A stretch of DNA of 34,834 nucleotides from the NCBI GenBank assembly GCA_947624705.1, contig CANQLL010000008.1, forward strand, positions 1-34,834, given 5' to 3'. The position numbers and the translations under genes were made by a program. This stretch comes from an uncultured Bacilli bacterium. GTDB lineage: Bacteria; Bacillota_I; Bacilli_A; RF39; UBA660. How positions within the stretch are numbered: the first letter of the stretch is position 1; each line of letters starts with the position of its first letter. Under the pieces are notes generated by a model. That model was not told where the DNA came from. It saw only the letters and a list, made by a program, of their open reading frames with translations, and made no database searches. Below, piece after piece: positions 26,905 through 30,119 of this stretch.

Positions 26905-27219
26905 ATGCAAGCAAATAAATTTTCAAAGCAAAAGAAAATCAATAAAATAATTTTAATCATAAGTTTATTTTGTTGGATAGCTTTTTTAGTTCTTAGTATA
27001 TTTCTCGGTTATTTAATGTATAGTGGTGGGTTATTCTGTTTGAATGTATGTGAAAAAAGCCAATATTCTTTATTTAAAAATATATTAATGGCTATAAATT
27101 TATTATACGAACTTTTGGGAATATTTTTAATTGTAATCCTTAGTGCAGCTACTATTGGAATAGTAGTATCTACAGCAACACTTGTCTATTTAAGATATAA
27201 AAAAACCAAAAGAAAATGA
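26905..27219 (+). CDS. Small membrane protein, 104 aa
   Basis: Two to three hydrophobic segments, SD AGAAAGAGG, basic C-terminus; TGA stop. Confidence 0.65.
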   Translation: MQANKFSKQKKINKIILIISLFCWIAFLVLSIFLGYLMYSGGLFCLNVCEKSQYSLFKNILMAINLLYELLGIFLIVILSAATIGIVVSTATLVYLRYKKTKRK

Positions 27220-27341: not shown

Positions 27342-27370
27342 TTGTAAAAAACGCAAAAATTTCATAAAAT
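27342..27370 (+). promoter_or_regulatory. Promoter of antisense RNA of the type I TA-like locus
   Basis: TTGTAA, 17-bp spacer, TAAAAT; -10 ends 7 nt before the 13-bp inverted repeat. Confidence 0.6.
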
Positions 27371-27377
27371 AAAGATG

Positions 27378-27458
27378 TAAGTGCTACATATTAGCATCTA
27401 CAAGGATGTAGATACCAAGTTAAAAGATTGCTCTTTTAATACGGTATCTTTTTATTTT
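27378..27458 (+). ncRNA. Candidate antisense/antitoxin RNA (~80 nt)
   Basis: UAAGUGCUACAUA 5' end, hairpin AUCUACA-AGGA-UGUAGAU, then terminator GATACC..TTAAAAGA..TCTTTTAA..GGTATC with TTTTTATTTT. Confidence 0.55.
27411..27458 (+). terminator. Intrinsic terminator of the antisense RNA
   Basis: GATACC/GGTATC outer stem, TTAAAAGA/TCTTTTAA inner stem, TTTTTATTTT tail. Confidence 0.8.
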
Positions 27459-27520
27459 AAAAAATCTTTTAGAATTTTTAAAATTATTATATCTTGTAGT
27501 AAAATCATTATACTACTCAT
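27452..27520 (-). CDS. 22-aa hydrophobic peptide, candidate type I toxin
   Basis: MSSIMILLQDIIILKILKDFLK*; AAAGGAG SD 9 nt upstream of ATG; -10 TATAAT upstream (27615-27620). Confidence 0.55.
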   Translation of the reverse strand: MSSIMILLQDIIILKILKDFLK

Positions 27521-27614
27521 AACTATCAACTCCTTTGCAAACCAAAACCCCTTAGGAATTAAGATTTTCAAAAATGTTTAGAAGTAGACACCGCTATGTA
27601 GCACTTAATTTTTT

Positions 27615-27642
27615 ATTATAAAAGCAAGTAAAAAATAAACAA
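27615..27642 (-). promoter_or_regulatory. Promoter of the 22-aa peptide mRNA
   Basis: TTGTTT, 16-bp spacer, TATAAT; -10 ends 7 nt before the inverted repeat, mirroring the opposite promoter. Confidence 0.6.
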
Positions 27643-27680
27643 AAAGCGTTCGTCAAATTCCGACATATCAACTTATATAA

Positions 27681-28034: not shown

Positions 28035-30011
28035 TTATTCACCTCGATTTTTAACATAATTGCAAATAATATCTACTACTTCTTCTTTGCCTAATGCAGC
28101 GTTAAGACATAAATCATAATTATTAATATCTCCCCATGATTTTCCTGAGATTAATTCATAATAACTTGCTCTATTTTTATCAGATTTCTCTACATTCTTC
28201 TTGGCTTTATTTAAAGAATCTTTATACATTTCTTGCACTTTTTTAATACGATAATCTTTAGGAGCATGAATAAATATTTTAATAACATTAGGATTATCTT
28301 TCAAAACATAATCTGCTGCTCTTCCGACTAAAACACATGACCCTTTTTCAGCAATCATTTTAATTACTTTTTCTTGTGCCGTAATCGCATATTTAACAGG
28401 AGCTGTTGTTAAATATAAATCATGTAAATAATCTTGACTTTGATTAATTTTCGAAACAAAATCTTGATCTAAACCACTTTCTTGTGCAGCTAAAGAAATC
28501 ATTTCTTTATAATAATAAGGAATATTAAGCTTTTGAGCTACTAATTTACCAATTTCTTTTCCTTGCGAACCATGTTGTCTTGAAATTGTAATAATAATAC
28601 CTTGTTTAGAATTTTTAAAACTTTCTTTACTCTTGACTACTTTTTCATTTTTATTTAATTGTTTAAAGAAATTATACACTAAAATAAAAGTAATAACAAT
28701 GCCAATTACATCAGCAATTGGGGCTGCAATTAAAACACCTTTTATTCCTAAAAAGTTTGGTAAAATAATAACTAAAGGAATAAAACAAACTATATCTCGA
28801 GCTAAAGAAACAATTGCCGATTTTAATGGTTCACCCACGGCTTGAAAGAATATTGAACATAATTTTATTAAACAAGTTAGAGTAACTAACATTAAAAATA
28901 AACGGAATGTTAAAGTAGCAAATTCTAAATATATTGCATCTGAAGAACCAAAAATTCTAATAATTGCGCCCGGGAATAACTCAAAACAAATGGTAGATAA
29001 AACCCCAACGATAGACGCCGCAATTACAACTTTTTTAAATGTTTCCTTAACCCGGTCAATGTTTTTAGCTCCATAATTATAACCAAGAATAGGTTGAGCT
29101 CCCAAAATAATACCGACGATAATATTAATAACAATCGAAAATACTTTCATAGCTATGCCAATAACAGCAATTGGTATATCGGCACCATACTTACTCTTCG
29201 CCCCATATTTAGCTAACATAATATTACAAACTAAAGAAATTATTACAATACTCATTTGCGTAATAAAAGTGGAAATGCCTAACTTTAAAACATTTTTAAA
29301 TAAGCGAAAATCCATTTTAAAACTTTCCCATTTTAATTTAAAAGTTTTAGTTCTTGTAAAATAGATAATTGAGATAATTAAACTAGCTATTTGCCCAATT
29401 ATCGTCGCATATGCCGCACCCTTTATTCCTAAATTTAAACCAAAAATAAATATGGGGTCTAAAATAATATTAATAATTGCTCCGGCTGAAGTTGCTAACA
29501 TGGAAAATCCAGGAGACCCATCTGCTCTTATAATTGCATTCATACTATTTCCTAACATATAAACGGGAATAGCTGAAAGAATAATAATAAAATAATCTCT
29601 AGCCAAGTCAATACTTGCCGAACTTGCACCGAATAAGAATAATAATTTATCTTGAAATAAAAAACCTAAAACTAAAAAGATAAGACTAATTATAAAAGTT
29701 ATTAACAAACTATTACCAATTGCTCGATGAGAATTTTTAGTATCTTTACGTCCTTGGCATAGAGATAAAAAGGCCGACGCGCCATCACCAAAACACCATG
29801 CAAAGGCTACAGCTATAATTGTTATAGGATAAACTATCCCCGTAGCGGCATTTCCTAAGTACCCAAGTTTGCTATTTCCTATAAATATTTGATCTACAAT
29901 ATTATATAAAGAACTTATTAATAAAGATAAAATACAAGGAATTGAAAATTTCAATAATAATTTTGAAATTTTTTCTTCTCCTAAAAATTTATTGTTTTCT
30001 TGTTCATTCAT
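28035..30011 (-). CDS. MATE efflux transporter fused to C-terminal cytidylate kinase-like domain
   Basis: GEEKISKLLLKFSIPCILSLLISSLYNIVDQIFIGN...; C-terminus GIIITISRQHGSQGKEIGKLVAQKLNIPYYYKEMI...GSCVLVGRAADYVL. Start reset to 30011 (SD GGGAGGAAGAGG); the ORF track begins at 30119. Confidence 0.88.
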   Translation of the reverse strand: MNEQENNKFLGEEKISKLLLKFSIPCILSLLISSLYNIVDQIFIGNSKLGYLGNAATGIVYPITIIAVAFAWCFGDGASAFLSLCQGRKDTKNSHRAIGNSLLITFIISLIFLVLGFLFQDKLLFLFGASSASIDLARDYFIIILSAIPVYMLGNSMNAIIRADGSPGFSMLATSAGAIINIILDPIFIFGLNLGIKGAAYATIIGQIASLIISIIYFTRTKTFKLKWESFKMDFRLFKNVLKLGISTFITQMSIVIISLVCNIMLAKYGAKSKYGADIPIAVIGIAMKVFSIVINIIVGIILGAQPILGYNYGAKNIDRVKETFKKVVIAASIVGVLSTICFELFPGAIIRIFGSSDAIYLEFATLTFRLFLMLVTLTCLIKLCSIFFQAVGEPLKSAIVSLARDIVCFIPLVIILPNFLGIKGVLIAAPIADVIGIVITFILVYNFFKQLNKNEKVVKSKESFKNSKQGIIITISRQHGSQGKEIGKLVAQKLNIPYYYKEMISLAAQESGLDQDFVSKINQSQDYLHDLYLTTAPVKYAITAQEKVIKMIAEKGSCVLVGRAADYVLKDNPNVIKIFIHAPKDYRIKKVQEMYKDSLNKAKKNVEKSDKNRASYYELISGKSWGDINNYDLCLNAALGKEEVVDIICNYVKNRGE

Positions 30012-30030
30012 TTTCCTCTTCCTCCCATAG

Positions 30031-30053
30031 AAAAAACAAGTTATAAAACTTGT
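30031..30053 (-). terminator. Leader terminator upstream of the MATE fusion gene
   Basis: ACAAGTT-ATAA-AACTTGT followed by six U on the minus strand. Confidence 0.65.
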
Positions 30054-30090
30054 CAGTTTATACGCTTTTCCAAGCTGGTTCGACTTATCC

Positions 30091-30119
30091 ATTTTATAAT
30101 TTTTTAAAAATTTTTGCAA
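30091..30119 (-). promoter_or_regulatory. Promoter of the MATE fusion gene
   Basis: TTGCAA, 17-bp spacer, TAAAAT. Confidence 0.5.

Follow-up and report, generated by a model that had tools for sequence, protein, structure and literature searches.

A candidate multicopy type I toxin-antitoxin family with a predicted latched toxin mRNA in uncultured gut Bacilli

Contig CANQLL010000008.1 of an uncultured Bacilli bacterium (assembly GCA_947624705.1), analysed here as one window of 34,834 nucleotides (nt), carries at 27342-27642 a 301-bp locus that we interpret, with a probability of about three in four, as one of many chromosomal copies of a type I toxin-antitoxin locus from a new sequence family, in which a latched toxin mRNA would be paired with a convergent antisense RNA. 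The case is made from sequence: conservation among copies, coding constraint, both promoters, the antisense terminator, a predicted and covarying latch, and asymmetric loss. An earlier reading of the same DNA (the original prediction) had proposed a type I system of an unrecognised family, and this proposal is supported by conservation of both the reading frame and the antisense gene. Curated collections are negative: the peptide has no match in Pfam or NCBIfam even at E<=10, and Rfam 15 gives no match in the window at the gathering score, the weak matches near the locus all falling below it.

Conservation of the peptide and the antisense gene

The locus is one member of a family whose roughly 40 copies and fragments are scattered through seven of the nine genomes in a single genus of uncultured Bacilli from the rabbit gut. 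Used as a query, the 301-bp locus matches additional sites in the window's own genome. Of the eight other genomes, six give strong matches, about ten or more of them in G006; a model of the full unit places copies at many unrelated sites in seven of the nine genomes, with zero matches in G007 and G008. The records that match a motif of the unit exactly belong to uncultured Bacilli sampled from rabbits and carry names that begin with 'Lapin'. Outside the genus, the peptide profile returns noise (E 0.011 or worse, versus 3.8e-5 or better inside, among 98 genomes), and blastn across 294 family genomes gives two weak matches, and the one inspected, in G013, turns out to be ordinary AT-rich DNA that lacks the layout. 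Restriction to this genus is the best reading of these searches. A phage or plasmid origin was considered and rejected, as distant blastn gave zero matches in phages and in plasmids; an exact-pattern search of viral contigs also gave none. An ortholog of the window copy was sought beside the tRNA-binding gene in G003, G004 and G005, and none of the three has one there.

Alignment of 27 copies shows what the family keeps: both promoters, the starts AAGTG/GAGTG, the Shine-Dalgarno sequence (SD), the ATG, the open reading frame (ORF), the central hairpin and the antisense 5' hairpin. The minus-strand 22-residue ORF with its well-spaced SD, described in the original prediction, is confirmed in the window, and the outcome named there as speaking against a type I system, a frame not conserved in homologous loci, is not what is found: all 27 aligned copies, and a more divergent 28th, have an intact frame, which encodes peptides of 22-25 residues that resemble MKKLLVILKVIIIIKILNILKNI or MSNIIILLLELIIIKLLNIRNDNLK. 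Differences among the aligned copies fall at first, second and third codon positions in the numbers 484, 161 and 469, so that second positions are conserved, and column shuffles reach the observed nonsynonymous/synonymous (dN/dS-like) ratio in only 3 of 500 trials. Insertions and deletions within the ORF are in frame, including a clean 9-nt deletion (three codons) in the window copy. A short hydrophobic ORF with an SD, conserved as a protein, is one general property of type I loci, and the family has it.

The second such property, an overlapping antisense RNA with its own promoter and terminator, is also predicted here. The copies that keep the ORF also keep the convergent antisense gene together with its promoter and terminator, and the antisense promoter has a TTG.. 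-35 and a TATAAT or TAAAAT -10 in 27 of 27. Both convergent promoters could be located in the window as originally described, and the plus transcript does run into a strong hairpin followed by a T-run (27410-27458). The stem of this central hairpin covaries (GACGCC..GGCGTC in some copies, GACACC..GGTGTC in others), and the 5' hairpin of the antisense RNA, TGTAaGTGCTA..TAGCATcTACA, is nearly invariant. Along its entire length the plus RNA of about 80 nt is predicted to complement the final (3') third of the toxin message; the original prediction had it complementary to the 3' part, and the overlap includes one arm of the latch described below. In the toxin direction the central hairpin lacks a T-run, which lies on the antisense side only, and the toxin message would therefore end further on, at a 3' hairpin with predicted folding energies of -5 to -9 kcal/mol across 15 representative copies and a conserved T-rich tract behind it. 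This structure looks like a terminator. It complements the antisense 5' hairpin, and the T-rich sequence that follows it on the minus strand is the antisense -10 region.

The pattern of loss has one direction. Counting partial copies away from contig ends, at least five have lost the toxin start and kept an intact antisense gene (G000C2, G003C82b, G005C43, G006C39 and G006C35), and in G000C27 the toxin is promoterless beside an intact antisense gene; the reverse case, an intact toxin without antisense, was not found among the copies examined. This is the direction that a toxin-antitoxin pair predicts. Decayed remnants at three further loci consist of the upstream box and promoter only, the central hairpin only, and a degenerate unit without ORF.

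The terminal inverted repeat and the 5'-3' interaction

The original prediction drew attention to two -10 elements that each end 7 nt before the same 13-mer, TAAGTGCTACATA, giving both RNAs the same 5' sequence. Both observations are correct, and the two copies of the 13-mer match with zero mismatches. It is only the core, however, of a more extended, imperfect inverted repeat, in which 27365-27401 and 27584-27620 are 76% complementary over 37 nt, and what the mirror-image description missed is that the 5' and 3' ends of the toxin mRNA are thereby complementary to each other. By itself the repeat was rejected as evidence: it is the sole 13-bp inverted repeat at a spacing of 100-300 bp in the window, and Markov shuffles of this AT-rich sequence average 2.3. 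Since such a repeat is unsurprising in AT-rich DNA, the case rests on comparison between homologous loci, and it is conservation within the genus that raises the repeat above chance.

Folding predicts the long-distance interaction at a probability of 0.87-0.99 in 27 of 27 copies. Past the GTGCTA core the bases vary among copies and tend to stay complementary within each copy (CATA/TATG, CAAC/GTTG, GAGC/GCTT). Arms of the same copy pair better than swapped arms, with none of 20000 permutations as good in the dereplicated set; by energy the values are -29.2 kcal/mol for own, -25.7 for swapped and -8.6 for scrambled arms (0 of 5000 permutations). The covariation score of the arms, 0.318 versus 0.144, is reached by none of 500 shuffles and vanishes when the register is slid. 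With the first column set aside, departures on the toxin strand include 12 G.U and zero A.C cells. Neither a repeat acting at the DNA level nor pairing on the opposite strand would favour G.U at these positions, so the best reading is that the repeat serves RNA pairing within the toxin message.

These features suggest the following mechanism. The minus strand would be transcribed into an mRNA of about 240 nt encoding a hydrophobic peptide of 22-25 residues, which would probably insert in the cell membrane and is likely toxic to the cell that makes it. The full-length message would be latent, its first 10-14 nt, together with a TCTAC further in, pairing with its own 3' end while the leader hairpin holds the SD; trimming of the 3' end would be the activating step. 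The plus-strand RNA of about 80 nt would pair with the 3' third of the message, including the 3' arm of the latch, and the resulting duplex could block activation, trigger decay, or both. The identical 5' starts would then follow from the inverted repeat, out of which both the latch and the 5' hairpins of the two RNAs are made. A more tentative extension, to which we give distinctly less than even odds, has this one repeat doing four jobs, namely carrying the starts of both RNAs, capping both with the same 5' hairpin, latching the toxin mRNA end to end and forming the toxin terminator hairpin, whose T-run is the antisense -10 region. Promoter, terminator and latch would thus be a single co-evolving element, and orphan antisense copies might act as antitoxins in trans.

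Several points weigh against the toxin-antitoxin interpretation. The window peptide is the most divergent of the family and, of the intact copies, scores lowest against the profile (E 3.8e-5); the loss asymmetry is drawn from a small number of copies, with some obscured by contig ends; and the permutation controls do not fully remove relatedness between copies. In addition, the leader is predicted to fold into a long hairpin over the SD in nearly every copy, but the effect is modest, with a mean unpaired probability of the SD of 0.24 versus 0.35 in leader-shuffled controls. The SD also remains in this hairpin when the 3' end is truncated, so that in the model 3' trimming alone does not explain activation, and opening of the message does not appear to be explained by thermodynamics alone.

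Known type I systems and alternative explanations

The closest parallel in design is aapA/IsoA of Helicobacter, where a short toxic-peptide gene, present in several chromosomal copies, is controlled by a cis antisense RNA, and where the full-length mRNA of about 225 nt is closed by a 5'-3' long-distance interaction and has transient SD-masking hairpins (PMC6733600). The present family, as read from sequence, shares the short peptide gene, the chromosomal multicopy state, the SD-masking hairpin, the cis antisense gene and the 5'-3' interaction, here predicted and covarying. It differs in its unrelated peptide, set apart from AapA by the Pfam and NCBIfam non-match and not by direct comparison with AapA sequences, and in its host class. 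Furthermore, the antisense gene lies at the 3' end of the mRNA instead of opposite its 5' part, as in aapA, and its start falls within the latch-forming inverted repeat itself. In hok, the full-length mRNA is also latent and needs 3' processing to free a 5'-3' lock (PMC6733600). An end-to-end latched message is predicted here too, in a host of another phylum. Hok is longer than the family peptide, and Sok acts at the 5' leader. Among Bacillus systems, yonT/SR6 and others such as txpA/RatA and bsrG/SR4 overlap at their 3' ends; compared with these, the family peptide is much shorter and no sequence relation was found, and the family has a terminal inverted repeat.

The par_pAD1/Fst system of Firmicutes has convergent promoters, a central terminator, a leader hairpin covering the SD and a 5' helix in the toxin RNA (PMC7472228). 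Convergent promoters, a central terminator, an SD-sequestering leader hairpin and a 5' helix are all predicted here as well, and the locus could be imagined to work as par does, the antisense 5' end GCATCTAC pairing directly with the toxin SD region GTAGATGC like DRa/DRb in par_pAD1. In KKLL-type copies the match is exact, the SD region GGAGTAGATGC being the full complement of the nearly invariant GCATCTAC. It is not family-wide, however: such pairing is absent in SNIII-type copies and poor in the window, and pairing between the antisense 5' part and the leader is no better than with shuffled antisense RNA (ranks of about 20-198 of 200 across the family, 94 of 200 in the window). Direct antisense-SD pairing, plausible in the KKLL-type subgroup, was therefore rejected as a general mechanism, as it does not rise above shuffles outside that subgroup, and we regard a par-like mode of action as unlikely. 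The family peptide also lacks the signature W between the transmembrane helix and the charged tail as well as the P/D/S/TXXXG motif, and the terminator is bidirectional in par and has its T-run on the antisense side only here. Because these tests for an Fst peptide failed and no curated peptide family matched, the locus is classed as a new sequence family with a type I layout and a putative function.

A different possibility is that the peptide is a small membrane regulator, a secreted signal or a bacteriocin-like peptide under antisense RNA control and no toxin at all. The upstream box of the toxin gene also precedes cold-shock genes, a gene for a C39-peptidase ABC transporter and others, and the toxin gene may for that reason be part of a physiological regulon. 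The 22-25 residues, however, show no evident leader-peptide cleavage motif, and a multicopy latched mRNA with antisense and one-way loss fits addiction or toxicity better, which makes this explanation improbable. It is more improbable still that the unit is a MITE-like (miniature inverted-repeat transposable) element, its repeats being transposon ends and the peptide and antisense incidental: the family is dispersed and multicopy and has inverted repeats, and the locus next to the window copy lacks the element in three relatives, but the repeat sits inside both promoters, away from the ends of the conserved unit, changes in one arm keep RNA pairing on the toxin strand only, and the ORF is under coding constraint. 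A toxin-antitoxin cassette may nevertheless itself be mobile.

Few phyla are known to have type I systems, whose tiny peptides make them difficult to detect (PMC12390103). In this case conservation by itself was enough to reveal an entire multicopy family, with a covarying 5'-3' latch, in uncultured gut Bacilli, which suggests that control by a latch is found beyond Proteobacteria as well, and in a very compact form. The combination of terminal inverted repeat, convergent promoters and short hydrophobic ORF offers a template for further searches.

Feature coordinates, upstream box and neighbouring genes

Table 1. Features of the locus in window numbering, with the basis for each assignment.
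Feature	Position	Strand	Basis or remark
Upstream box TGTCGGAATTTGACGAACG	27647-27665	-	Kept in nearly all copies; typically lies about 7 nt upstream of the toxin -35 region
Toxin promoter -10, TATAAT	27615-27620	-	Sequence; TATAAT in 27/27 aligned copies
Predicted full-length toxin mRNA, about 240 nt	27365-27607	-	Promoter, start, 3' hairpin and T-run inferred from sequence and conservation
Inverted-repeat 5' arm TAAGTGCTACATA (toxin mRNA 5' end; 5' arm of the 5'-3' interaction)	27595-27607	-	
Leader hairpin region sequestering the SD	27521-27590	-	Predicted fold in nearly every copy
Shine-Dalgarno sequence AAAGGAG, 9 nt before ATG	27530-27536	-	SD ahead of ATG in every intact copy
22-residue hydrophobic ORF MSSIMILLQDIIILKILKDFLK, putative toxin, stop included	27452-27520	-	Conserved 22-25 residue peptide family
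Central hairpin	27410-27449	both	Inverted repeat I5; + strand T-run 27449-27458 makes it the antisense intrinsic terminator
Antisense promoter: -35 TTGTAA 27342-27347, 17-nt spacer, -10 TAAAAT 27365-27370	27342-27370	+	
Predicted antisense RNA, putative antitoxin, about 80 nt	27377-27456	+	Promoter and terminator conserved
Second inverted-repeat arm	27378-27390	both	+, antisense 5' end; -, 3' arm of toxin mRNA interaction
3' hairpin and T-run, candidate toxin mRNA terminator	27364-27402	-	Overlaps antisense 5' hairpin and -10

The upstream box, TGTCGRAATTTGWCGAACG, is a direct repeat of the form TGTCGA-N4-TGWCGA upstream of the toxin promoter. Its core TTTGWCGAACG has 42 matches in the genus against 5 for the reversed control, and it is likely an activator-binding site. 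Within the genus the box recurs upstream of cold-shock protein genes, a gene for a small protein of about 52 residues, a C39-peptidase ABC transporter gene and a STAS-domain gene (12 loci), marking a candidate regulon with a putative activator. Poly-C/poly-G tracts of 7-10 bases lie near many copies or remnants in related genomes (11 loci), apparently in the promoter regions of neighbouring genes, where phase variation is possible. Beside the locus, an ORF for a 104-residue membrane protein (26905-27219, + strand) has zero Pfam matches, and on the other side a long ORF (28035-30119, - strand), judged by reading its translation, appears to join a MATE-type transporter to a cytidylate-kinase-like domain.
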